The notes below the pieces were generated by a model. The model worked only from the letters and a program-made list of their open reading frames with translations. It had not been told where the DNA came from and did not search any database. Shown here piece by piece: positions 3,707-17,978 of a DNA stretch of 20,182 nt (position 1 is its first letter; every line of letters starts with the position of its first letter). The translations under genes were made by a program, and so were the position numbers. Source of the stretch: a virus; IMG/VR virus record IMGVR_UViG_3300032246_001034, positions 1 to 20,182 of that record. One strand, given 5' to 3'.

Positions 3707-3864
3707 AATCTTGTTATTTCATCCTGTAGTTTAATTGCACCTTCAGCACCTCTTTTTTCCCAAACTAATGCCAGTTGCTTCCTTCTTTTCTGTAAAGACC
3801 AGCTTAACAGTTCTCTTGCTTCACATTCTAATCGCCATGCTTCTGATTTCTTAAATTCAGACAT
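3646..3864 (-). CDS. small conserved phage protein, DUF7696-like
   Basis: A 72-aa protein whose core (SEAWRLECEARELLSWSL, then KRRKQLALVWEKRGAEGA, then LQDEITRLWK) resembles a short phage family annotated, as I recall, as DUF7696: a charged helical protein with the WRxECEAR opening. The last 18 or so residues extend past the usual end of that family and are read from sequence that also encodes the next gene, a long out-of-frame overlap. It also overlaps the upstream nuclease-like gene by 37 bases. Function is unknown. Confidence 0.7.
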   Translation of the reverse strand: MSEFKKSEAWRLECEARELLSWSLQKRRKQLALVWEKRGAEGAIKLQDEITRLWKIQKNQQTKQDDLFMRNQ

Positions 3865-4277
3865 CTGTAAGTTACTCCATCATCCCATCTTTGATCTACT
3901 GCTTTTTCATACAGCCTTATGATTTGGTCTGGGTATTTCAATATAGGGTTTTGACCCTCAAAACAAAAAGCATAAATCAATGGTGCTTTTGGCGAGTGAT
4001 ACCATTCTAAAAACAAAGGCAATAAATCTATTTCTTTCTTTTTAAAATTGTCTGTGCCTTTTACTTGCACTACATAGCTATTGTCCAAAGAATGCACTAC
4101 ATAATCTGGTAAATTTCTAATTAAATGGTTTAAATTGTAAAAGTTTGGCACTTCGGTTTTATGTTCATTAAACCCAATCCTATTAAACTTATACCCTTTA
4201 GAATTGCAATAGGCTTCAAACAGGATTTCTCCTTTGTTTGGCTCTTTTAGGCGATCAGCAAAATTAGGTATGTTCAT
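3828..4277 (-). CDS. PD-(D/E)XK-like nuclease, putative
   Basis: A 149-aa protein that I judge to be a restriction-endonuclease-fold nuclease. Helix 1 carries E17 (KGEILFEAYCNSKGYKF), followed by P57-D58 and then V70-Q71-V72-K73 in SYVVQVKGTDNF. This is the PD...(D/E/Q)xK signature on two neighbouring strands, with Gln in place of the usual acid as in several resolvase- and Vsr-related groups. A C-terminal half rich in aromatic residues follows. Possible roles are Holliday-junction resolution or nicking. The start overlaps the preceding 54-aa gene by 14 bases. Fold assignment is by motif only. Confidence 0.6.
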   Translation of the reverse strand: MNIPNFADRLKEPNKGEILFEAYCNSKGYKFNRIGFNEHKTEVPNFYNLNHLIRNLPDYVVHSLDNSYVVQVKGTDNFKKKEIDLLPLFLEWYHSPKAPLIYAFCFEGQNPILKYPDQIIRLYEKAVDQRWDDGVTYRCLNLRNQKHGD

Positions 4278-4428
4278 TTTTAGCCTGTTCTATAGCTTTT
4301 TCTAAGATTGCAATAAATCCATATTGGAACATCATCTTCATAAATTCTGGTGAACAATCCAATTCAATGTCTGCTGAACCATCTGGGTTCTCTACTAAAC
4401 TAACAACTGTAAATGATGGGGTTGTCAT
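4264..4428 (-). CDS. small conserved phage protein, 54 aa
   Basis: Read directly: ATG at 4428 overlaps the glycosyltransferase stop as ATGA, and TAA lies at 4264. The N-terminal half is beta-like (PSFTVVSLVENPDGSADIELDC) and the C-terminal half is one amphipathic helix (SPEFMKMMFQYGFIAILEKA) with a polar tail. The pattern ENPDGSAxxxxD followed by a helix recalls a small phage protein found in replication operons, with no known function. It fills exactly the gap between two certain genes, which supports it. Confidence 0.75.
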   Translation of the reverse strand: MTTPSFTVVSLVENPDGSADIELDCSPEFMKMMFQYGFIAILEKAIEQAKNEHT

Positions 4429-5282
4429 ATCAATTTCATTCCATAGTTATTAACTACATTAGGAATAACTAATCCTTGCTTTTTGATTAGCCTATTTTTT
4501 TTAAATGCTCTGTAATCTACATGATGATGCCATCTGTTAAATCTCCATACAACTTTAGCAACATCTGGATGCATATCCTCTAGCATTTTAGATTTTGGTA
4601 AAGTTCCTTCTTTTGCATAGAATTCCTCAGTATTTCCACCTTTTAAAGTTTGTGTCTGAGCTTTTTCTTGTATAAAAGCATTAAATTGAACTGTGCAAAA
4701 GCCATCTTTTAATACTCTTAAAGATAAATCTGTATCTTCATTATAACGACCTCGCCATCTATAGGGAATGTTATTCCTAATTAACAAACAAGAATAAATC
4801 CTAGTATTCATAATGTAAGGTGGATGCTTAACTTTTGACTGCACAAAAAAATCATAGTTAAAGCCAGATATGTAAATATTTTCATATCGATCCACAAAAT
4901 CTTCTGATGCTTTAAAAATAGCCCCTGACAGGCATTTAATCATTAGGTTTCTGTTTATCCTTTGAAATGATTTTATATTGTCATCCATTACCCAATGCTT
5001 ATCTGCTCCCAAGCCAATTGAATGCTCCCATGCAAAATTTCTAGCCGCACCCGGTCCTTTGCTTTTGGTGCTATTTAAATCATCACAAGTATCATATTCA
5101 TCCAAATACTTTTGGGGCAATACAAGAATCTTTTTTTCATCAATTACATTGGCATATTCTTGATACTGTGATTGTTCAACCACAATAAAATATGGCACTT
5201 GCATTTCTTCCAATGCTTTGCTTGTAAGCCTTGTATCCCATCTGCTCTTGGAAACAATGTAAATTGGGCAATTAGGATTCAT
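4425..5282 (-). CDS. TET-associated-type glycosyltransferase
   Basis: A 285-aa protein that matches the TET/JBP-associated glycosyltransferase (TAGT) family, predicted to transfer sugars to hydroxymethylated bases in phage DNA. Visible landmarks: YIVSKSRW near the N-terminus, ARNFAWEHS (80-88), H-W-V-M-D-D-N (96-102) as the nucleotide-sugar/metal acidic pair, NTRIYS, RYNEDTDLSLR (179-189) and KGGNT (214-218). These are the family's most conserved blocks in order and at normal length, so the enzyme looks intact. I chose the ATG at 5282 (AAGG seven bases upstream); one at 5288 is possible. No TET/JBP oxygenase, kinase or methylase is in this window, so the acceptor base must be made elsewhere or the substrate differs. 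The gene overlaps its neighbours on both sides. Confidence 0.85.
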   Translation of the reverse strand: MNPNCPIYIVSKSRWDTRLTSKALEEMQVPYFIVVEQSQYQEYANVIDEKKILVLPQKYLDEYDTCDDLNSTKSKGPGAARNFAWEHSIGLGADKHWVMDDNIKSFQRINRNLMIKCLSGAIFKASEDFVDRYENIYISGFNYDFFVQSKVKHPPYIMNTRIYSCLLIRNNIPYRWRGRYNEDTDLSLRVLKDGFCTVQFNAFIQEKAQTQTLKGGNTEEFYAKEGTLPKSKMLEDMHPDVAKVVWRFNRWHHHVDYRAFKKNRLIKKQGLVIPNVVNNYGMKLI

Positions 5283-5520
5283 CAACATACCTTAAATGTG
5301 CTCTTTTTCTTGGTTCTGCAAAAGGAAACCAGATTGTCTTTAATTTTGGTGTAATTTTTTGATTCATTAACCTTTCAAACTCCAGCACATCTTCTTCATT
5401 TCTAAAGCGAACATTAATGGTTCTGTAAGGTGTCAAATCTTCTTGCACAAACTCTGGCATATCGACCCAATGCTCTCGCCAGCCTTCTTGTAATTCATCA
5501 TTAAATAAATCATTTGTCAT
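5272..5520 (-). CDS. TAGT partner protein, 82 aa (MPEF motif)
   Basis: An 82-aa protein with the pattern W-x-D-M-P-E-F-V-Q-E-D (19-28), then INVRFRNEEDVLEFERLMNQ and K-x-I-W-F-P (61-66), ending RYVDES. From memory, this short protein repeatedly sits beside phage TAGT or DNA-methyltransferase genes in environmental phages and is built around the MPEF and TKSIWFP-type motifs. Its biochemical role is unknown; a DNA-binding or adaptor function in base modification is an inference from neighbourhood. It overlaps the glycosyltransferase gene by 11 bases, so the two are co-translated. A ribosome-binding-like AAAGGA lies eight bases before the ATG. Confidence 0.8.
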   Translation of the reverse strand: MTNDLFNDELQEGWREHWVDMPEFVQEDLTPYRTINVRFRNEEDVLEFERLMNQKITPKLKTIWFPFAEPRKRAHLRYVDES

Positions 5521-5530
5521 ATTTTGTCCT

Positions 5531-5683
5531 TTACATTAAAGCATCTTCAAACTTAACAACTGGTTTTATTTCCTTTTTTACAACAATCTTCCAATCTGGT
5601 CGCAAAGATACTAAATATTTCGCTTCTGCTCTGCTTTTTGTTTTGCGAATCAAGCCTAGTTCATCATAAATGTAATAAATCAT
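5531..5683 (-). CDS. small conserved phage protein, 50 aa
   Basis: Read directly: ATG at 5683 overlaps the stop of the replication gene as ATGA, and TAA lies at 5531. The sequence (MIYYIYDELGLIRKTKSRAEAKYLV, shown in outline, then SLRPDWKIVVKK, then FEDALM) has a beta-alpha-beta layout: a hydrophobic strand, a turn with charged residues, a helix over RAEAKYLV and a closing strand. Short proteins of this type (YYxYDELGLIRKT) are frequent between phage replication genes, with unknown role. It exactly fills the space between two secure genes. Confidence 0.75.
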   Translation of the reverse strand: MIYYIYDELGLIRKTKSRAEAKYLVSLRPDWKIVVKKEIKPVVKFEDALM

Positions 5684-6456
5684 GCCCTAGCCCTTTCTTC
5701 TCTTTTGTCAATAATGAACTTTCTCATTTCAAAATAACTGTTAAATCGAGCTAGGCGAGGATCACCACCACATTCGACCCTGTATGCTTCTTCTATCTGT
5801 TGCTCTGTTCCTAGGGGCAATTCCTTGGGTTTTGTAGCCTGTTCCACAATTACTTCATCTAGCCAATGCTGACCCTTTAACCATCTTTCAGGGTCTTTTC
5901 TGTATTTGTTATCAGGCTTGGCAACTTTGTCTGCTTTTGCTTTATTGACAATGATCGCGATAAGTTGTGCATCTGGCTTAATCTTTTGCCATTGTTTAAT
6001 TGCATTAGGTTTGCCAACCTTTTTATCATAAGCATTCCAAAATAAATCAAAGCCTTCAGGCTGTATTGTTTTTATATGGTTCTTGGTTACTGGTTCTTGG
6101 TTACTGGTTGGTTGAACGATTGTTGAACGACTGTTGATTGCTCGTTTAAGGGCTGATGCTTTGCCAGCTTTAGAAGCATTTTCTATTAAAGAATGATAGT
6201 GAGCTATTTCTTGGTCGCATCTAGTGTGATGCCATCCATCATCAGTTTCTATAAAAAACATATTAAGAATGCCAGTAACTATGCTTTCACTATCTCTAGC
6301 ATTTGCTTTCATTGACAATACAAACAAGTTTTTTGGCAATGGCTTTTCAGTATCGTAATAAAGCCAAAGCAATTTCATATAAATACCAACTTCTTCATTG
6401 GTAAGATATGAAGTATCTTTTATGAAATCACCGATATGGTGTTGATAATAATGCAT
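5680..6456 (-). CDS. DUF1376 (YdaU-like) replication initiation protein
   Basis: A 258-aa protein. Residues 1-85 form a DUF1376 domain (MHYYQHHIGDFIKDTSYLT, then a helix with MKLLWLYYDTEKPLP, then W-H-H-T-R-C-D-Q-E), the winged-helix module of YdaU-like phage replication initiators. A polar linker follows, then a C-terminal block starting FDLFWNAYDKKVGKPNAIKQW, found in phage O/DnaT-like proteins that load the host helicase. An in-frame TTG lies five codons upstream, but the ATG at 6456 has AGGGA at good spacing and begins exactly like the family, so I use it. It likely binds an origin; none is recognised here. The next gene starts inside its stop (ATGA). Confidence 0.83.
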   Translation of the reverse strand: MHYYQHHIGDFIKDTSYLTNEEVGIYMKLLWLYYDTEKPLPKNLFVLSMKANARDSESIVTGILNMFFIETDDGWHHTRCDQEIAHYHSLIENASKAGKASALKRAINSRSTIVQPTSNQEPVTKNHIKTIQPEGFDLFWNAYDKKVGKPNAIKQWQKIKPDAQLIAIIVNKAKADKVAKPDNKYRKDPERWLKGQHWLDEVIVEQATKPKELPLGTEQQIEEAYRVECGGDPRLARFNSYFEMRKFIIDKREERARA

Positions 6457-6564
6457 ACAATTCCCTGTCAAAGGCAGTCAATGGTGGACTTGGCAGAGAA
6501 GTGACTAAGTTCCTTTTCGGGTAAAGTAATGAGCTTTCCCCTAGCCTGTCCATAGACTTTACTA
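6457..6564. other. 108-bp spacer, unassigned
   Basis: This lies between the replication initiator and the upstream nuclease-like gene, both on the minus strand. It is unusually long for this packed operon. A minus-strand ATG near 6530 opens a frame of about 42 codons running out of frame into the initiator gene, but it lacks a ribosome-binding site. It is also richer in G and C than its surroundings. It could be a leader, an origin or a recent insertion; I see no clear repeat or structure beyond a 6-bp GTAAAG/CTTTAC pair. Confidence 0.35.
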
Positions 6565-9457: not shown

Positions 9458-9657
9458 ATCCATTTGCACAAAAGGAATTCGATAAGATACCAAAAGCTGT
9501 CTATGCACCAGAAGAATATTTTGAAATGGGCTGGATGTCGGCAATCAACACTTTGTCTAAGGAATTTATGACTAAATGGGAAAAAGCAGAAATTGAAGAT
9601 ACCCAATTAGTTCATGAACACCAGCAAATGCCAATGCCAGATGATGAAGCAGAATAA
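9454..9657 (+). CDS. hypothetical protein, 67 aa
   Basis: A 67-aa acidic helical protein (EEYFEMGWMSAINTLSKEFM, then KWEKAEIED) with a His/Gln/Met-rich tail ending in DDEAE. No domain is recognised. It is ATGA-coupled to the gene before it, and its last codons overlap the start of the following cysteine-containing gene. The acidic C-terminus is reminiscent of tails that bind SSB partners or act as disordered linkers, but that is only an observation. Confidence 0.66.
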   Translation: MNPFAQKEFDKIPKAVYAPEEYFEMGWMSAINTLSKEFMTKWEKAEIEDTQLVHEHQQMPMPDDEAE

Positions 9658-9874
9658 TTGGTATCCATTATGTTTTGAATCAAGAACTCAATATATTTCA
9701 TGGCAACAGGCAAGAGATTATGCTCATGAAGTAGCTTCAGTTTGTGATGATTGTGATGCAGATTATTCAGCAGAAATGCAAAGACAAAAAAGGTGCATCC
9801 CACAAGATGCTATGTTCAACTCCACTAACAGTAAGAAATCATGCAAACTAAAGATTATTCAGAGTTATACCTAG
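9641..9874 (+). CDS. cysteine-motif conserved phage protein, about 78 aa
   Basis: The protein reads MMKQNNWYPLCFESRTQYIS, then WQQARDYAHEVASVCDDCDA, then YSAEMQRQKRC. The block ISWQQARDYAHEVASVCDDC is the recognisable core, with C35-x2-C38 and one more downstream cysteine, consistent with a small metal-binding phage protein whose relatives lie in recombination operons. An upstream ATG at 9614 is in frame, but its first nine codons are poor matches. I therefore prefer 9641 (or 9644), which overlaps the upstream stop by about 15 bases. Function is unknown. Confidence 0.7.
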   Translation: MMKQNNWYPLCFESRTQYISWQQARDYAHEVASVCDDCDADYSAEMQRQKRCIPQDAMFNSTNSKKSCKLKIIQSYT

Positions 9875-10029
9875 ATACCCAATGTGCTATCAAGAACTGT
9901 CATTTATTTTGCTTAAAAAGCGATTGGGAATCAGCAAGTAAAGCGGCAGAAGCAATATCAATATATGCAAAACAACTACAGGATACGATAAAAACTTATG
10001 ACAACATTCACAACAGAAGATCGGCTTAG
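9841..10029 (+). CDS. hypothetical protein, 62 aa
   Basis: A 62-aa helical protein (YLDTQCAIKNCHLFCLKSDW, then ESASKAAEAISIYAKQLQDT). Helix 1 carries C15, C20 and C24 but in no recognised metal-binding spacing. A helical hairpin that oligomerises is likely. It overlaps the gene before by 34 bases and the exonuclease gene after by 32, both in different frames. The long overlap with the exonuclease suggests either coupling or that the exonuclease starts later. No function is known. Confidence 0.66.
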   Translation: MQTKDYSELYLDTQCAIKNCHLFCLKSDWESASKAAEAISIYAKQLQDTIKTYDNIHNRRSA

Positions 10030-10678
10030 TGCCATAGAACCAATCCCTTTTGCTGGGTTGGTCGATTTAGAGATTAAACAGGGTACTGAGGAATGGCATC
10101 AGATTAGGCTTGGCAAAGTAACAGCCAGTAGGGTCGCTGATGTCATGTCCAAGGTTAAAACTGGGGAATCTGCTAGTCGAAAGAACTATAAGATGGATTT
10201 GGTGGTAGAAAGGCTTACAAACAGCCCTACAAGCAGTTTTAGCAGTCCAGCTATGCAATGGGGTACAGAAACAGAACCATTGGCTAGGATGGCTTATGAA
10301 GCCAAATTTGGGCTATTTGTAGATCAGGTTGCTTTTTGCAACCATCCTACTATCAAAAACTTTGGTTGTAGCCCAGATGGAGTGGTTGGGGATGGGCTTA
10401 TAGAAATTAAATGCCCAAATACTACTACCCATATTGAGTATTTAATGGGGGGTATTCCCCCAGCAAAGTATGTCCCACAAATGCAGACACAAATGGCTTG
10501 CACAGGGGCTAGATGGTGCGATTTTGTATCATTTGACCCTAGACTGCCATCTGAGTTGCAATTGATTGTAATTCGCCTGAATAGGGATGATGCATATATT
10601 CAGGAAATAGAAACAGAAGTTAAGCAGTTTTTAGAAGAAGTTGAACAAATTTACTCACAATTGAAAGCGAGAATGTAA
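9998..10678 (+). CDS. YqaJ-type viral recombinase (lambda-exonuclease family)
   Basis: A 226-aa 5'-3' exonuclease of the YqaJ/lambda-exonuclease branch of PD-(D/E)XK nucleases, which resects double-stranded ends to give the single strand bound by the annealing protein. Motifs in order: KQGTEEWHQIRLGKVTASR (27-45), W-G-T-E-T-E-P-L-A (88-96), C124-S-P-D127-G, E136-I-K138 as the catalytic pair, then V-P-Q-M-Q-T-Q-M-A-C (159-168). All catalytic positions are present and length is normal, so it looks functional. It partners with the upstream Sak3 gene and the following SSB-like gene. The start overlaps a neighbouring gene by 32 bases; the true start could be slightly later. Confidence 0.88.
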   Translation: MTTFTTEDRLSAIEPIPFAGLVDLEIKQGTEEWHQIRLGKVTASRVADVMSKVKTGESASRKNYKMDLVVERLTNSPTSSFSSPAMQWGTETEPLARMAYEAKFGLFVDQVAFCNHPTIKNFGCSPDGVVGDGLIEIKCPNTTTHIEYLMGGIPPAKYVPQMQTQMACTGARWCDFVSFDPRLPSELQLIVIRLNRDDAYIQEIETEVKQFLEEVEQIYSQLKARM

Positions 10679-10920
10679 TGGGCATTAAATATGATTGTAT
10701 TGTTAAGAATGGCACTTATACTGATAAAACTGGGGCTGAAAAGAACCGGTGGCAAAAGATTGGTGTTTGTGTAGAAACCAAACAAGGTGGTCTGGCAGTT
10801 AAGCTAGAAACTATCCCTGTAACTTGGGATGGTTGGATTTCTTTAGCAGAGCCAAAGCCAAGGGAAAATGCTCCACAAGCTGTAGCACTTAGTGGTATAG
10901 AAGAAGATATACCCTTTTAA
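10678..10920 (+). CDS. SSB-like single-strand DNA-binding protein
   Basis: An 80-aa protein with an OB-fold-like beta pattern (MGIKYDCIVKNGTYTDKTGA, then K-N-R-W-Q-K-I-G-V-C-V) and a proline/alanine linker leading to an acidic, hydrophobic tip, IEEDIPF. Such a D-I-P-F end is the docking tail of bacterial SSB proteins, which recruit repair partners. It is shorter than cellular SSB but like several phage forms. It shares one base with the exonuclease stop (TAATG) and closes the recombination module (annealing protein, exonuclease, SSB). The structured junction at 10933-10996 begins 13 bases after its stop. Confidence 0.7.
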   Translation: MGIKYDCIVKNGTYTDKTGAEKNRWQKIGVCVETKQGGLAVKLETIPVTWDGWISLAEPKPRENAPQAVALSGIEEDIPF

Positions 10921-10987
10921 TGAAAAATAGCAGATAGGACTATTACTTCACGATTCTGCGACAGCCCAGAATCTTCCTATCAGGCTG
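10921..10987. repeat. interlocking inverted repeats, possible RNA pseudoknot
   Basis: The junction between the convergent SSB and lysozyme genes has three perfect 7-bp complementary pairs: GATAGGA (10933-10939) with TCCTATC (10975-10981); GATTCTG (10952-10958) with CAGAATC (10967-10973); and GACAGCC (10960-10966), lying in the loop of the second stem, with GGCTGTC (10983-10989). They are mutually compatible as a pseudoknot. A fourth pair, GAATCTT (10969-10975) with AAGATTC (10990-10996), competes. On the minus strand the element is followed by a T-run near 10929, which suits termination of the lysis operon. Confidence 0.65.
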
Positions 10988-11464
10988 TCAAGATTCAAAC
11001 AATGCTCTTTCATCATTTCTTCGGTTTTGCAAACCTTTAAGAATCTTGCCACCAGCCATGATGTATTTTAAGAATTCCATTGATGCCCCTTTAAAATCTT
11101 CTCGATTAACCTTTTGACGCAAGGTTGATCTTTGTAATGTCCCCAGACCAACATTAAAGCTAAAAGACACCAAAGCATCGAACTGACCTTGTGTGAGTTG
11201 AACAGGACAGTATTGCTCAACACCTCTTTCAAACCTAGCCAAATCTGTTCTAAGAATATCATCGACTTCTTCCATGCTAAATGTTCTATTATCTTCTGAT
11301 CTTAATGGCACAAGCATTCTATCATCCATTTTTAGTTTTGCCTGTTCTGGATAAAGCACATGACCAACACCAATTGTCCAAAGATTAGCTGGACATCGAT
11401 AGGCTTTTTGTCTTACACCTTCATGGTGTTTAATCATGTTTATTGCTTTAGAAGATACTTTCAT
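10988..11464 (-). CDS. endolysin, GH24 lysozyme
   Basis: A 158-aa phage-type lysozyme that cuts the MurNAc-GlcNAc bond of peptidoglycan. The triad region is visible: E15 in HHEGVRQKAYR, C24 in YRCPANLW, T30 in WTIGVGH. The Glu-Cys-Thr spacing (9 and 6 residues) equals T4 lysozyme's Glu-Asp-Thr, with Cys replacing Asp as in P1 Lyz. Downstream, LTQGQFDALVSFSFNVGLG and LQNRRNDERALF are standard family blocks. The N-terminus has no signal or SAR anchor, so export must come from the holin directly upstream, with which it overlaps by ATGA. The stop codon lies in the pseudoknot-like junction. Confidence 0.93.
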   Translation of the reverse strand: MKVSSKAINMIKHHEGVRQKAYRCPANLWTIGVGHVLYPEQAKLKMDDRMLVPLRSEDNRTFSMEEVDDILRTDLARFERGVEQYCPVQLTQGQFDALVSFSFNVGLGTLQRSTLRQKVNREDFKGASMEFLKYIMAGGKILKGLQNRRNDERALFES

Positions 11465-12691: not shown

Positions 12692-13129
12692 TTATATTAT
12701 CTGTAGAGATTTTATCACTTCTTCTGGCTTGACAAAAGCATCAGGGTTATATTCTGTCAAATCCCACCAAAGAAATTGATTTTGTGCCAGATTATCTCTG
12801 CTTTTTAATAGATTAATATTTTCTGGATGCCCAAAGATTAATGGATCAGATACAGACCATAGAACAATGCCTTGTTTGCCACATTCCCATGCAAGATGCT
12901 GAAAGAAGCTATCACAACCAATCCATGTTCGACATTGTGCTATTAGCTGTCGCAATTCTGAAATAGGCAAATTTTTCCTAAAGTCTGGCACTAATTGTTC
13001 TTCTCCTTCAATACCAATTTGAACAATAGGCTTATCTATTAATTCAATTAGCTCTTTCCAATAAGGATAGTTTTTAGGATTTTGTTTGCCATTTACTAAT
13101 GCTTTGGCATAAGGAGAAATAATAATCAT
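12692..13129 (-). CDS. GT9-like glycosyltransferase, C-terminal half
   Basis: A 145-aa protein with the donor-binding half of a heptosyltransferase (GT9) fold: MIIISPYAKA opening, then TWIGCDSFFQHLAWECGKQG (68-87) and VLWSVSDPLIFGHPENINLL, the G-C/V-D-S-F-x-Q-H-x-x and F-G motifs used to bind the ADP-sugar. A complete GT9 enzyme needs an N-terminal Rossmann half as well; that half appears to be fused to the end of the preceding gene. It overlaps that gene by ATGA. It probably acts with it in adding a sugar to a surface glycan or lipopolysaccharide-like acceptor (inference). Confidence 0.72.
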   Translation of the reverse strand: MIIISPYAKALVNGKQNPKNYPYWKELIELIDKPIVQIGIEGEEQLVPDFRKNLPISELRQLIAQCRTWIGCDSFFQHLAWECGKQGIVLWSVSDPLIFGHPENINLLKSRDNLAQNQFLWWDLTEYNPDAFVKPEEVIKSLQII

Positions 13130-14097
13130 AGGTATAGCTTTTTAAATGCATCTGCCAAAGAACCTTTCCAATTCCATTGACACATTTTTTTATAAATATT
13201 CCATTGGTCAAGATCACCAAATAAGGCTTTAGCTTCAGCAATTGATCTGCAAGGAATTATCTCAGGATAGCATCCAAAGACCATTGGATTTGGGATAGAA
13301 CCCAAGATACTATTGAAAATGATATGATCGCCCAGCCCACAATTAAGTACGACAATAGTCCTATCAGAATGACCGACAATATTCCTAAAAATTTGTTCAT
13401 CATGTTCATACATCTCCCTTTTGGTTTCGCTTCTAATGCCACCTTCTGGGTTCTTCATGTGCCATGTAATTGCATGAGGAACTGTTAAAATTTTATATCC
13501 TTTTTGATATAACCCATAAGTAAATAATGTTTCTTCCCTATGTGCCACTCGCGATAATCCAAGATTGTAGTCATGCACTCCAGCACGATATAGAAATGAA
13601 CAATGTAAATGCTCTACTTCTTTTGTTTTCTTTATATCATTCCATTGAATATTCGGTTCTGTATCAATATCTGCTATTTTGCCAGTAGATTTGCTAGTAT
13701 CAAATAAGTTAGGTGGAGTAAGAATAGAGCCACCAACAGCCCCTATATCTTCTATAGATGTGTAGGCTAATAGATTGCCAAGCACATTAGGCTCTGGTAT
13801 TGCATCATCATCGCATCGCCAAACCCAATCAAAGCCCATTGTGTTAGCTCTCTGATGGATATGGTGTTGCCCCTTTTTTTCTGCAAACTGCCATTCCCAA
13901 GCTATTTTTTTTATATCTAGCATTTGAAAGAAATATTGATAAATCATTTCCTTTCGCATATCTTGGGGTTCATCATTATCATCAAATATCATCACCTTAT
14001 CTGGTGGTGTAGTCTGATTAATAATGGCATTTAAAACCAATGGCAAAGTTGTAAAGTATCTACCCCTAGTTGCTACAGAGCATAAAACTTTAGGCAT
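13126..14097 (-). CDS. GT2-family glycosyltransferase fused to GT9 N-terminal half
   Basis: A 323-aa protein. Residues 1-230 form a GT2 (GT-A) domain: V-A-T-R-G-R near the start, F-D-D-N-D (38-42), C-D-D-D (95-98) as the metal-binding acidic set, H-R-E-E-T (187-191) and PHAITWHMKNPEGG. From residue 246, DRTIVVLNCGLGDHIIFNSI is the N-terminal glycine-rich strand of a GT9/heptosyltransferase Rossmann domain; its other half is in the next gene. It overlaps the methyltransferase gene by 8 bases. It likely transfers a sugar onto a glycan near the virion surface or host envelope. Confidence 0.8.
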   Translation of the reverse strand: MPKVLCSVATRGRYFTTLPLVLNAIINQTTPPDKVMIFDDNDEPQDMRKEMIYQYFFQMLDIKKIAWEWQFAEKKGQHHIHQRANTMGFDWVWRCDDDAIPEPNVLGNLLAYTSIEDIGAVGGSILTPPNLFDTSKSTGKIADIDTEPNIQWNDIKKTKEVEHLHCSFLYRAGVHDYNLGLSRVAHREETLFTYGLYQKGYKILTVPHAITWHMKNPEGGIRSETKREMYEHDEQIFRNIVGHSDRTIVVLNCGLGDHIIFNSILGSIPNPMVFGCYPEIIPCRSIAEAKALFGDLDQWNIYKKMCQWNWKGSLADAFKKLYL

Positions 14098-14662
14098 TAT
14101 CCCACCTACAAAGCATTAAACTAAATTTATCATCTGGGCTAATATAAGATGTTACATAACCATCTTGATTAATAAATTCATATTTAAAATCAGGCAAATC
14201 TTTTTCTGTAAGACCATGTAGTTTATGATGCTCACCCCAAAAGCCTACTGGCTCATTATAGGGAACTGAAATTAGCAATCGCTTACAATGCTTTTTAAGT
14301 TTTTCAACAATCTCTAAACCATTGTCTAAATGCTCTATTACTTCAAAAGCAATAATAGTGTCATGTTGCTGAAGTTTTAATTTGTTGATGTCTGCATGAA
14401 CATACAAAGTATTGTTTCGCCAACCTTGCATAGAAGCATACTTGATAATTTTTTCATCATAATCAACACCTACATAGTAAATGTCATTTGGTAAGAACTG
14501 TATTCCATAGCCACTAGAGCAACCAACCTCTAAAATGTTTTTACCTAAAATGTGTTCATTAGCCCAGATATAGCGACTTGCTTCTCTGGGATAAACAGGA
14601 TCACCCTTTAGGAATACTGCTCTTTCAAAGTTGTTTTCTAATTCTTGTCTTATGTTATTCAT
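14090..14662 (-). CDS. class I SAM-dependent methyltransferase
   Basis: A 190-aa methyltransferase with motif I N-I-L-E-V-G-C-S-S-G-Y-G (42-53), the D67 acidic end of strand 2 (VGVDYDE) and F-E-V-I-E-H-L (106-112), the UbiG/Methyltransf_11-type signature. The tail carries H-K-L-H-G-L-T, common in sugar- or small-molecule methylases. Standing beside glycosyltransferases, it may methylate a sugar residue or the acceptor. An in-frame TTG upstream is rejected in favour of the ATG at 14662, which has AGGA six bases before it. The gene follows the fibre gene and overlaps the GT2 gene. Confidence 0.85.
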   Translation of the reverse strand: MNNIRQELENNFERAVFLKGDPVYPREASRYIWANEHILGKNILEVGCSSGYGIQFLPNDIYYVGVDYDEKIIKYASMQGWRNNTLYVHADINKLKLQQHDTIIAFEVIEHLDNGLEIVEKLKKHCKRLLISVPYNEPVGFWGEHHKLHGLTEKDLPDFKYEFINQDGYVTSYISPDDKFSLMLCRWDNA

Positions 14663-14672
14663 TTTTATCCTA

Positions 14673-17600
14673 TTAAACAATTACCCATGCACTTCCTGTA
14701 TCTACTGATACTGTAACACCAGTATTAATGGTTATTGGTCCGGCAGATAATCCATTAGTTCCAGCCGCAATAGTTTGGTTAGATGAAATGGTAGTGCTAT
14801 TGTAATAAATACCAGTTCCATACATTTGACTTGTGCCAGTTGCACCACTAAAACCTGACCAGCCAGATATGCCACTACCAGAATAACCACTATAACCACT
14901 TATACCAGAAGCACCATTTGTACCATTTGTACCATTAGTACCAGAGTATCCACTAAAACCACTTGTGCCTGTTGCTCCACTATATCCTGAATAACCACTA
15001 AATCCTGAAATTCCTGATTGACCAGCAATATCAAAAGTCCAAGATGCAAAAGTTCCTGAACCACCAACCAAATCTACATTGACTGTAAGAGTTGTAGTTG
15101 TATAAGCAGTAATCTGACCTTCCATAAAGTTAGTAGTATTGTTAATGCGAACTCTCATGCCTACTACATAAGCATTAGTGCCTTGTGATTGATTTACTGT
15201 AAAGGCTTTAGAACCAGTACCAATTAAAAAAGAAGTAGTAGAAGTTAAATTAGCATAACCTAATCCAGAATATCCAGAATAACCAGAAATTCCACTAAAA
15301 CCACTTGTGCCTACAGCACCAGAATATCCTGAAATACCAGATGCACCATTAGCACCACTATATCCACTAAACCCTGATGTGCCTACTGCACCAGAATAAC
15401 CTGAGAATCCACTTATGCCTTGTGAGCCATTTGTGCCACTAATACCAGAAAATCCTGATAATCCTGATGCTCCAGTTGCACCACTAAACCCAGAATAGCC
15501 TGAAATTCCTGATGCTCCATTAGTTCCATTAGTGCCACTATAACCACTAAAGCCTGATGTGCCTTGTGCTCCAGAGTAACCAGAAAAACCACTTGTGCCA
15601 ATTGCACCACTATAGCCAGAGTAACCACTAACTCCTGATCCTGAATAACCAGAATAGCCTGATACACCACTTCCACTATAACCACTTATTCCAGACCAGC
15701 CACTAATGCCAGAGAATCCACTATAGCCAGAAATTCCACTATACCCTGATTGGGTATACATCACTTGTGTTGCAGTAAGAATGACTGATGGAGTTCTAGG
15801 ATAAGAGCTAGTTGCCGCTATTGTTTCAATAGTTACATTTGTGTTTGCGGTCTGCCAATAAAGTTGGAATACATCATTAGCCGCAACATTAAGCACATAA
15901 TTTACAGTCAATACTTCAGAAGAAAATGATGAACCTTGTTTATCTGGCACATCATAATGAGTATTACTATCTGCCAAATCAGAACCATTCTTACGCAACC
16001 AAACTTGTGTATTGCCTAATGCGGTGCTTCTATTTGTAAATTGAATTGAGTAAGTAATGCTAAATGTTCCAGCAACATTAAATCGCCATTGATTAGCAGA
16101 AATTAATACAACATTATTGCTTCCATCTGTTGTATTTAAATTAATTGCAGTTGGAGTATTTGCAGTTGCAGTTTGATTTGTGGTGTCATAGAAAGAACCA
16201 TAAGCACCTACAGTTCCACCTAGACCAGCCACTCCTGAATAACCACTATAGCCACTATAACCAGATTGACCTACTGCACCAGAGTAGCCTGAGTAACCAC
16301 TAATACCAGAACCAGAATAACCAGAATAACCAGATACTCCACTTCCTGAATATCCACTTATGCCACTATAGCCACTAAAGCCTGATTGACCATTTGTGCC
16401 TGAGATTCCTGAGAACCCACTAAATCCTGAGATTCCACTTGCACCAGAATATCCACTTACACCAGAACCAGAATAACCTGAATAGCCACTAATTCCAGAG
16501 TATCCTGAGAAACCACTTACCCCTGATCCTGAATAGCCTGAGAAGCCACTAAAACCACTTACACCACTTCCAGAGTAGCCAGATATACCTGAGTAGCCAC
16601 TATATCCAGATTCGCCACTAAAGCCTGAAAAACCACTTTGCCCTGAATAACCAGATTCACCAGACCATCCTGATATGCCACTATCTCCAGAAAAACCTGA
16701 GATACCTGAATCGCCACTATAGCCTGAAATACCTGAATCACCAGAGTATCCAGAAATTCCTGAAAAGCCACTATATCCTGATATACCAGAATCACCAGAC
16801 CAACCAGAAATACCACTATCACCAGAATACCCAGAAAATCCACTTATGCCAGAATCTCCACTAAACCCTGAAATACCTGAATCACCTGAAAATCCTGAGA
16901 AACCACTAATACCACTATCACCAGAATAACCACTAAAACCTGATTGACCTTGTGGAACAAATAAAGCCCAGTCTGCGTTTGTGGTTGGTGGATTATCAAA
17001 AGGTATTATAGATGCTAGTGCAATCCAAGTTTGATTCGCATAAGCAACTATTGAATTTTGAATATAAGAAACTTCAATTACCCAACTACCTTGCCAATAT
17101 AAACCTATACCTGAATAACCAGAATAACCACTATCACCTGACCAACCAGATATTCCTGAATCACCTGAGTAACCAGAATAGCCTGAAATTCCACTATCGC
17201 CTGACCATCCAGAAATTCCACTATCGCCACTAAATCCAGAGTAACCACTTATTCCTGAATCGCCTGAGTAACCTGAAATGCCAGAATCTCCAGAGAATCC
17301 TGAATAGCCACTATCGCCTGAGTAACCAGAAAAACCACTTATACCTGAATCACCAGAATATCCAGAGAAACCAGAAATACCACTTTGACCAGCCGGACCA
17401 ACTATCTGCCCAACATCAGTCCAAGTAAGTCCTGTCCATACATATAGATCGCCATTAGATGAAACAATATAAGCATCATTTAAATTGCCAGTTAAAGGCA
17501 AATCTAAAGGTGTTGGTACTGTACCAATAATATTAATTGATGTACCTTGCTGACCACTATATCCAGAAAAGCCACTATAGCCACTTATGCCAGAATCGCC

Positions 17601-17978
17601 TGAATAACCAGATTGTCCATCTTGACCAGAATACCCAGAATATCCACTTTCGCCTAATGATTCTCCTGAGTAGCCACTAAAGCCACTAAAACCACTTATG
17701 CCACTTCCAGAATAACCAGATATACCAGACTGTCCATTTTGACCTGAAAAGCCACTATAGCCACTATAGCCAGAATAACCAGAACCACCAATAACACCAT
17801 CTTGCCCTGAAAAACCACTATATCCTGATTGACCAGATGCTCCAGAGTAGCCTGAGTATCCAGATACACCTTGTGATCCTTGAACACCCTTATCAACAGT
17901 AAGAGTAATTTGATTGCCTACAGCTACATCAACATTGACTGTATCGCCATTAGCATTGGTAACTATTAATTCTGCCAT
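14673..17978 (-). CDS. giant Gly-X-Ser repeat tail fibre
   Basis: A 1101-aa virion fibre or adhesin. Most of residues 38-1047 are triplets Gly-(Tyr/Phe/Ile/Trp or Asp/Val/Ala)-Ser, interrupted by globular inserts at about 143-197 (NDAYIVSSNGDLYVW, a beta module), 291-342 (Y-W-Q-G-S-W, NSIVAYANQTWIAL, resembling a CBM5/12-type sugar-binding module), 588-738 (a C1q/TNF-like beta jelly roll) and 903-985 (beta-rich). It ends in a 50-residue C-terminal beta module. The N-terminus (MAELIVTNANGDTVNVDV) likely binds the tail. Few prolines occur, so a classic collagen helix is doubtful; a polyglycine-II-like bundle is possible. Good AAGGAA ribosome-binding site. The sugar-binding-like inserts suggest receptor recognition. 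Confidence 0.88.
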   Translation of the reverse strand: MAELIVTNANGDTVNVDVAVGNQITLTVDKGVQGSQGVSGYSGYSGASGQSGYSGFSGQDGVIGGSGYSGYSGYSGFSGQNGQSGISGYSGSGISGFSGFSGYSGESLGESGYSGYSGQDGQSGYSGDSGISGYSGFSGYSGQQGTSINIIGTVPTPLDLPLTGNLNDAYIVSSNGDLYVWTGLTWTDVGQIVGPAGQSGISGFSGYSGDSGISGFSGYSGDSGYSGFSGDSGISGYSGDSGISGYSGFSGDSGISGWSGDSGISGYSGYSGDSGISGWSGDSGYSGYSGIGLYWQGSWVIEVSYIQNSIVAYANQTWIALASIIPFDNPPTTNADWALFVPQGQSGFSGYSGDSGISGFSGFSGDSGISGFSGDSGISGFSGYSGDSGISGWSGDSGISGYSGFSGISGYSGDSGISGYSGDSGISGFSGDSGISGWSGESGYSGQSGFSGFSGESGYSGYSGISGYSGSGVSGFSGFSGYSGSGVSGFSGYSGISGYSGYSGSGVSGYSGASGISGFSGFSGISGTNGQSGFSGYSGISGYSGSGVSGYSGYSGSGISGYSGYSGAVGQSGYSGYSGYSGVAGLGGTVGAYGSFYDTTNQTATANTPTAINLNTTDGSNNVVLISANQWRFNVAGTFSITYSIQFTNRSTALGNTQVWLRKNGSDLADSNTHYDVPDKQGSSFSSEVLTVNYVLNVAANDVFQLYWQTANTNVTIETIAATSSYPRTPSVILTATQVMYTQSGYSGISGYSGFSGISGWSGISGYSGSGVSGYSGYSGSGVSGYSGYSGAIGTSGFSGYSGAQGTSGFSGYSGTNGTNGASGISGYSGFSGATGASGLSGFSGISGTNGSQGISGFSGYSGAVGTSGFSGYSGANGASGISGYSGAVGTSGFSGISGYSGYSGLGYANLTSTTSFLIGTGSKAFTVNQSQGTNAYVVGMRVRINNTTNFMEGQITAYTTTTLTVNVDLVGGSGTFASWTFDIAGQSGISGFSGYSGYSGATGTSGFSGYSGTNGTNGTNGASGISGYSGYSGSGISGWSGFSGATGTSQMYGTGIYYNSTTISSNQTIAAGTNGLSAGPITINTGVTVSVDTGSAWVIV
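14840..17900 (-). repeat. degenerate 9-bp tandem repeat encoding Gly-X-Ser
   Basis: About 3 kb of imperfect 9-bp units. The minus strand reads GGN-(TAT/TTT/ATA/GAT)-(TCN or AGY). Serine is written with both the TCN and AGY families (for example AGTGGTTATAGTGG beside GGTTATTCTGG), so protein repeats are tight while the DNA is scrambled. Non-repeat inserts break it at about 17390-17550, 16955-17107, 15765-16215 and 15025-15270. Confidence 0.85.

Follow-up and report, generated by a model that had tools for sequence, protein, structure and literature searches.

The beta-glucosyl-HMC-alpha-glucosyltransferase of phages T2 and T6 is a TAGT-family enzyme of known chemistry and acts on DNA, as described in the available part of PMC13216743. 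It works with hmC from gp42 and with an alpha-glucosyltransferase (alpha-GT). A textbook arrangement is seen in Nonlabens phage P12024L, where a TET/JBP oxygenase (gp26), a TAGT (gp27) and a methyltransferase (gp28) are found together. Solitary TAGTs have also been described: the available part of PMC13216743 finds that 288 of 753 phage genomes encode a TAGT while lacking both alpha- and beta-glucosyltransferase (beta-GT), and calls the enzymes potentially novel transferases. RefSeq gives the name 'beta-glucosyl-HMC-alpha-glucosyltransferase' to the TAGT of Aeromonas phage Aeh1 (NP_943971.1). In the accessible portions of two further papers, Aeh1 and phage 65 are absent from the gene-42 phages of Table 4 and lack gene 56 (PMC2993671), while the Aeh1 homologue is a presumed modifier of DNA at an 'unknown base', after Iyer et al. 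2013 (PMC8056088).

The locus analysed here comes from an IMG/VR record that is classed as linear, i.e. a fragment; all 20,182 bases of this record are referred to below as the window. It combines a TAGT gene with an overlapping gene for a small partner, named MPEF from the motif of the protein. The T2/T6 enzyme is matched by the same Pfam family (PF20691, at 37 bits) and the same PHROG family (842) as the window TAGT, and the T6 stretch has no MPEF match. The P12024L enzyme also belongs to this Pfam family and shares core residues with the window TAGT at 26% identity, but P12024L has no MPEF. The TAGTs of Aeh1, of phages 65 and phiAS5 and of Tenacibaculum phage PTm1 are 56–61% identical to the window enzyme over nearly the whole length. 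In these phages MPEF is the N-terminal domain of one fused protein, whereas the window has two overlapping genes, and their genomes measure 220–236 kb as against about 37 kb. Aeh1 and PTm1 are without gp42, and the RefSeq name is not supported for carriers that lack it.

Solitary TAGTs are a puzzle already in print; what is new here is the partner, MPEF or ParB, and the finding that known precursor enzymes are missing genome-wide. The solitary TAGTs of PMC13216743 likewise lack alpha- and beta-GT, and the available text of that report mentions no MPEF or ParB partner; nor was such a partner of TAGT seen in the titles and opening lines of abstracts of the literature on TAGT, PF20691 and ParB-glycosyltransferase. 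The question can now be tied to a defined two-gene unit with its partner family, and to genomes of a size that allows the known precursor routes to be excluded.

The TAGT glycosyltransferase

The TAGT gene (4425..5288, minus strand) encodes a GT-A glycosyltransferase of 287 aa. Its position, and the 17-base overlap with an 82-aa partner that had been predicted from the sequence, agreed with the coordinates, Pfam and PHROG. The protein matched PF20691 at E=1.7e-42 and 146.1 bits (cut-off 27.5) over profile positions 2–204 of 205, and PHROG 842 at E=1.1e-53. It was modelled by AlphaFold2 with a pLDDT of 92.2 and a pTM of 0.90, and a BFVD structure search with the model returned named TAGT proteins at ranks 2, 4, 5, 6, 9 and 11. 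A structure search had been put forward as a means of overturning the TAGT identity; the fold matched other TAGT proteins and the identity stands. The PDB matches of the model were GT-A enzymes, the best being COLGALT1 (E=1.6e-5). As COLGALT1 is a protein O-glycosyltransferase, this match of a predicted fold lends no support to DNA as the acceptor.

Residues R16, Y45, R83, W99, D102, D103, D185 and G217-G218 are common to at least five of the seven aligned T6/TET-linked TAGTs. The claim that the main TAGT blocks are kept was borne out, with D102, D103 and D185 present in all seven. The codons of D102-D103-N104 (4977..4985, minus strand) form the presumed metal/nucleotide-sugar (DxD-like) motif, which is invariant in an alignment of 74 MPEF-type rows (A5) and differs at its third position in the T6/TET-linked enzymes. 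The codons of E184-D185 (4734..4739, minus strand), within RYNEDTDLSLR, mark the presumed catalytic base motif, a role that we take over from GT-A enzymes in general; D185 is again invariant in the 74 rows. Many residues conserved within the clade of MPEF-linked TAGTs differ from those of the T6 and TET-linked enzymes, and this pattern of conservation suggests that the acceptor may differ entirely between the two. A comparison of the window TAGT with its counterpart in locus L002 gave a dN of 0.125 and a dS of 1.31, the latter near saturation. Family, fold and conserved residues all show the window TAGT to be intact as a GT-A sugar transferase, and it is under purifying selection.

A DUF1376 replication protein of the primosomal type is encoded upstream of the pair (5680..6471, minus strand; Pfam E=6.5e-25, PHROG primosomal protein 5e-35), which therefore places the pair in a replication/recombination region. 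The next gene in the same operon-like run is a 54-aa ORF (4264..4428, minus strand) that overlaps the TAGT stop and has no family match in Pfam or PHROG. Just downstream, at 3828–4277, a 149-aa protein resembles a small PD-(D/E)XK-type nuclease by eye and has no Pfam match.

The MPEF partner and the two-gene module

MPEF (82 aa; 5272..5520, minus strand) was delineated from an alignment of 24 sequences, the adjacency and fusion counts, the ParB fusion and dN/dS. Its end overlaps the TAGT start at 5272..5288 (minus strand) by the ORF coordinates, and translational coupling of the two genes is likely. The protein had no match in Pfam, NCBIfam or PADLOC and no PHROG match at E<=0.01, and the search for solved relatives by sequence gave weak matches alone. 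Comparison with the nearest relative of the window gave a dN of 0.015 against a dS of 0.90, which shows that the MPEF ORF is a real gene.

The relatives were drawn from viral contigs (the best 80 of 292 TAGT candidates, 19 MPEF loci and the best 80 of 553 MPEF candidates), from 24 annotated phage records with a TAGT match and from 46 bacterial loci. MPEF was directly upstream of the TAGT (202) or fused to it (20) in 222 of 233 TAGT ORFs, a redundant set in which overlapping loci are counted more than once. The two genes overlapped or abutted (gap <= 0) in 193 of the 202 adjacent pairs. On inspection, the 11 TAGT ORFs without an MPEF call comprised five start-codon artefacts in which MPEF is present, one tandem second copy, one whose MPEF lies 1.1 kb upstream, and four that were partial or at the edge of the locus. 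Among the annotated phage records 22 of 24 also carried MPEF, and the other two were the GenBank and RefSeq copies of P12024L. Conversely, every MPEF found in the phage collection (21 records with one query; POP12 with other queries) was in a TAGT record, and the plasmid collection had none; for viral contigs, the statement on MPEF without TAGT refers to the best 80 of 553 candidates. Judged from these sequences, MPEF-TAGT is a widespread two-gene module in which the partner looks obligate.

The same grouping was found in a tree of 92 TAGTs, where the 85 MPEF-linked rows fell on one side of a branch with a support of 90/86, which is below the strong level of the tool; none of 500 shuffles was as clustered. 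The T6 and TET-linked TAGTs, including that of P12024L, lay outside the MPEF group, with T6 and a Winogradskyella TET-linked enzyme on very long branches, and the TET-linked rows did not form one group.

The constancy of the pair also bears on whether the module is a non-functional relic in the window phage. Nothing speaks for this beyond the missing partner enzyme, and it is contradicted by strong purifying selection (dN/dS), full-length ORFs, conserved catalytic residues and the retention of the pair across 66 representative lineages; we regard a relic as hardly credible.

Fused proteins gave a view of how the two parts may be arranged. Residues 131–510 of the fused MPEF-TAGT of a viral contig (L095) were modelled as one body (pLDDT 91.0, pTM 0.90), a predicted structure in which MPEF seems to hold a fixed position against the TAGT. 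The best PDB matches of the fused model were LH3 and GalNAc-T enzymes. In the same contig, at 9590–11122, two MPEF-like stretches are followed by a TAGT in a single protein. Tandem TAGT genes were observed in L043, L047, L051, L056, L145, L230 and L103, and in some of these one copy is joined to a divergent MPEF domain of its own.

The module was located either among replication/recombination genes or just upstream of the terminase in prophage-like loci. The terminase-like genes of the Pantoea, Chryseobacterium and Acidobacteriaceae loci, which were identified by eye and served as seeds, were 0.6–1.3 kb downstream of it. After MPEF, the commonest neighbour was the DUF1376 replication protein. 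With 15 of 66 representatives it was also the best candidate for a universally linked third gene, and such a gene was rejected.

Association with ParB-like domains

In many bacterial loci MPEF forms the last ~70 residues of a protein of 200–226 aa, the first ~140 residues of which are ParB-like. The ParB-like domain of the Pantoea copy matched PHROG 620 (E=2.2e-56) and that of the Rubrivivax copy matched Pfam ParB_N (E=6.5e-07). A profile built from seven ParB-MPEF proteins showed 21 TAGT-linked MPEF proteins to carry the domain; together with two profile seeds that the adjacency rule had missed (L228 and L263), a ParB-like N-terminus is carried by MPEF in 23 of the 46 bacterial loci. Related versions of MPEF are thus fused to TAGT, as its N-terminal domain, to a ParB-like domain, as its C-terminal domain, or to both, as in L253, where ParB, MPEF and TAGT form one ORF. 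A further MPEF protein of 285 aa (L242 4142–4999) has an N-terminal domain that is not ParB-like and gave a weak RYYR-CCHC match alone.

Phage DNA methyltransferases begin with this ParB-like domain as well (PHROG 498 E=1.9e-46; PADLOC type II MTase E=6e-34), and the presence of the domain on MPEF therefore points to DNA. The phage enzymes of PHROG 498/620 join this N-terminal domain to a methyltransferase, while the bacterial relatives of the module join it to MPEF and a glycosyltransferase. The window MPEF differs from both, as it aligns solely to the C-terminal part of the ParB-MPEF proteins; the ParB N-terminal fold is absent from it, as from most viral MPEF copies, and was either lost or never present. 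ParB-like domains are also found without modification enzymes, which counts against a reading based on DNA.

A ParB-linked form without MPEF is found in Lactobacillus phage phiLdb, whose complete 34-kb genome has a ParB gene overlapping the TAGT gene and neither MPEF nor TET. The phiLdb TAGT (L298 848–1713) is apparently split over two overlapping ORFs directly after the ParB gene, and intact relatives occur elsewhere.

Search for precursor enzymes

The TET/JBP profile PF12851 had no match in the window and was detected by the same search in P12024L (E=2.8e-29). A tblastn search of the window with T6 gp42, two thymidylate synthases, two TETs, a phage methyltransferase and the T4 beta-GT gave a best E of 0.24, gp42 having no match at E<=1. 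The statement that no oxygenase or hydroxymethylation enzyme is visible in the 20 kb was thus confirmed. Absence here and below means that a protein falls below the profile thresholds, and the oxygenase search covered PF12851, generic 2OG oxygenases lying outside it.

The original prediction had placed the missing enzyme elsewhere in the genome or in the host, or had allowed for a different acceptor. The nearest relative of the window, G043 (L078/L302), is a 37.5-kb record that is co-linear with it at roughly 73–84% nucleotide identity in the longer blocks. Its genes, named by eye, run from lysis genes to the module, terminase, capsid and tail, followed by the same GT2/GT9 cassette as in the window. 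The ends of G043 carry an exact direct repeat of 123 bases (L078 1–123; G043 37363–37485), compared with at most 20 bases in 44 random comparisons. Despite its classification as linear, the record is therefore probably a complete genome of about 37.4 kb. The whole record contained no TET/JBP, thymidylate synthase/hydroxymethylase family, C5 cytosine methylase, T6 gp42, or alpha- or beta-glucosyltransferase. The proposed search for TET/JBP, dCMP hydroxymethylase and thymidylate synthase homologues in the rest of the genome thus extended the absence to G043 and went against a location elsewhere.

The two proteins of the module are unequally conserved between the window and G043, MPEF being 96% identical and the TAGT (L078 7142–7963) just 70%. 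The lower value arises in part because L078 has a different, shorter version of a loop at about TAGT residues 57–84 (5037..5120, minus strand, from the window/L078 alignment). The shorter version also occurs in other lineages, a distribution that we read as an allele swap inside the enzyme.

Beyond G043, TET/JBP was found in none of 65 viral and phage records (0/47 viral and 0/18 further viral and named phage records). The thymidylate-synthase family was detected in five of 34 long or isolate records, all of them large isolates (PTm1, POP12, Aeh1, Kuja and henriette), and in none of the 29 that were under 107 kb or from IMG/VR. Both companions of the T2/T6 enzyme were missing: T6 gp42 was absent from all 34 relatives, the five with a thymidylate-synthase homologue included, in a search that detects it in T6, and so was the alpha-GT (PF11440), whose profile detects the T6 enzyme. 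The beta-GT (PF09198; detected in T4) was equally absent from the 34. The C5 cytosine methylase (PF00145), searched for in these relatives, was found once among them, as a partial match in Vibrio phage 1.124.O. A precursor enzyme elsewhere in the phage genome was accordingly rejected for the known families, on 65 records for TET/JBP and 34 for the other routes.

These results bear on whether the window TAGT attaches a second sugar to a base that already carries one, as the T2/T6 enzyme does. The shared Pfam and PHROG family and the RefSeq name of relatives favour this, whereas the lack of alpha-GT, beta-GT and gp42 in the 34 relatives and the position of T6 outside the MPEF group, on a very long branch, make it very improbable.

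For a supply from the host, 36 module-bearing bacterial genomes were searched, many of them metagenome bins that may be incomplete or chimeric, and TET/JBP was absent from 35 (found in 1/31 and 0/5). The exception, a Winogradskyella MAG, has the oxygenase as a neighbour of the module and not as a distant host gene, and a host-supplied oxygenase was rejected; for the known families, an origin in the host, like one elsewhere in the phage genome, is largely excluded. On one 5.5-kb Winogradskyella contig (L243 533–3409), TET and a TET-type TAGT are convergent with a fused MPEF-TAGT, the sole case seen of the two types of TAGT together. Their juxtaposition indicates that the two kinds are distinct and able to coexist, in a DNA-modification setting. 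Among 19 TET-bearing viral loci, seven had a TET-type TAGT and none had MPEF within the flanks.

An ordinary 5-hydroxymethylpyrimidine glycosyltransferase would need an oxygenase or hydroxymethylase that is too diverged for the profiles or is provided by a co-infecting phage or the host. Such an enzyme would fit the TET adjoining MPEF-TAGT in one of the 36 bacterial genomes, the unknown ORFs left in every genome and the naming of the Pfam family for its association with TET. The counts given above for TET/JBP, with a profile that detects P12024L, and for the thymidylate-synthase family in the smaller and IMG/VR records run against it, as do the single, partial match to the C5 methylase, which is needed upstream of TET, and the TET-bearing viral loci, in which MPEF is missing. 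This makes an ordinary enzyme quite unlikely. Since the module-bearing genomes lack the known families of these enzymes, the base that receives the sugar is probably something other than a 5-hydroxymethylpyrimidine produced by TET/JBP or a dCMP/dUMP hydroxymethylase. A different acceptor, one of the options raised beforehand, is left standing beside a hydroxylase of no recognised family. The description of the pair as half of a DNA hypermodification system probably does not fit, as the module moves as an independent unit.

Proposed function of the module

The explanation that we favour is a DNA-directed, self-contained phage glycosylation module with MPEF as its targeting subunit, a reading that we hold to be about evenly balanced between right and wrong. 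The TAGT would act as the intact sugar transferase and MPEF as its dedicated substrate-targeting subunit. The module would most likely add a sugar to phage DNA around replication or packaging, and the sugar would shield the genome from host nucleases. The hydroxyl or amine that receives the sugar may be made by an unrecognised enzyme or may already be on the base. The ParB link, the location among replication and packaging genes, the Winogradskyella contig and the T6 chemistry, as given in the available text of PMC13216743, argue for DNA. Against DNA stand the window partner without a ParB domain, best solved folds that are protein O-glycosyltransferases, and the differing clade residues; moreover, the five large isolates with the module carry a thymidylate-synthase homologue, though not T6 gp42.

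A doubtful but possible alternative is that the acceptor is not DNA but a protein (a host defence or transcription factor, a phage protein, or perhaps the MPEF/ParB partner itself) or a surface glycan. This would agree with the best PDB matches being protein O-glycosyltransferases (COLGALT1 for the window; LH3 and GalNAc-T for the fused model), with conserved residues of the clade that DNA-linked TAGTs lack, and with the absence of a base-hydroxylating enzyme from the whole G043 record. It is opposed by a ParB-like domain in common with DNA methyltransferases, by a setting among replication/packaging genes and not tail or receptor genes, and by the action on DNA of the family member of known chemistry, as stated in the available text of PMC13216743. 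If the product is not linked to DNA, the name of the family and its annotation as DNA-modifying are in part wrong.

Within the favoured reading of DNA glycosylation, a more specific form is that MPEF-TAGT, with or without ParB, is independent of any oxygenase. The sugar would be placed directly on a standard base (e.g. on an exocyclic amine) or on a base that an enzyme outside the known families has prepared, with MPEF/ParB providing the positioning on DNA. We consider this specific form unlikely; if true, it would represent hypermodification by two proteins alone. A DNA-linked product would be a modification missed by pathway-based prediction, and would bear on restriction, type IV defences and phage engineering. 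Cultured carriers are available in Vibrio phages 1.124.O and 1.076.O, Aeromonas phages Aeh1 and 65 and Tenacibaculum phage PTm1, and phiLdb carries the ParB-linked form.

A second group of glycosyltransferase genes in the window, at 12692–14680, was considered as a part of the system and rejected, being found within the flanks in two of 66 representatives. It consists of methyltransferase, GT2-type and GT9-type genes beside a collagen-like protein, and is common to G043 and L088 and not to most TAGT carriers. The adjoining gene (14673–17978) encodes a protein of 1101 aa, composed mostly of GYSG/GFSG-type collagen-like repeats, that is long and poorly conserved in G043 and is probably a tail fibre.
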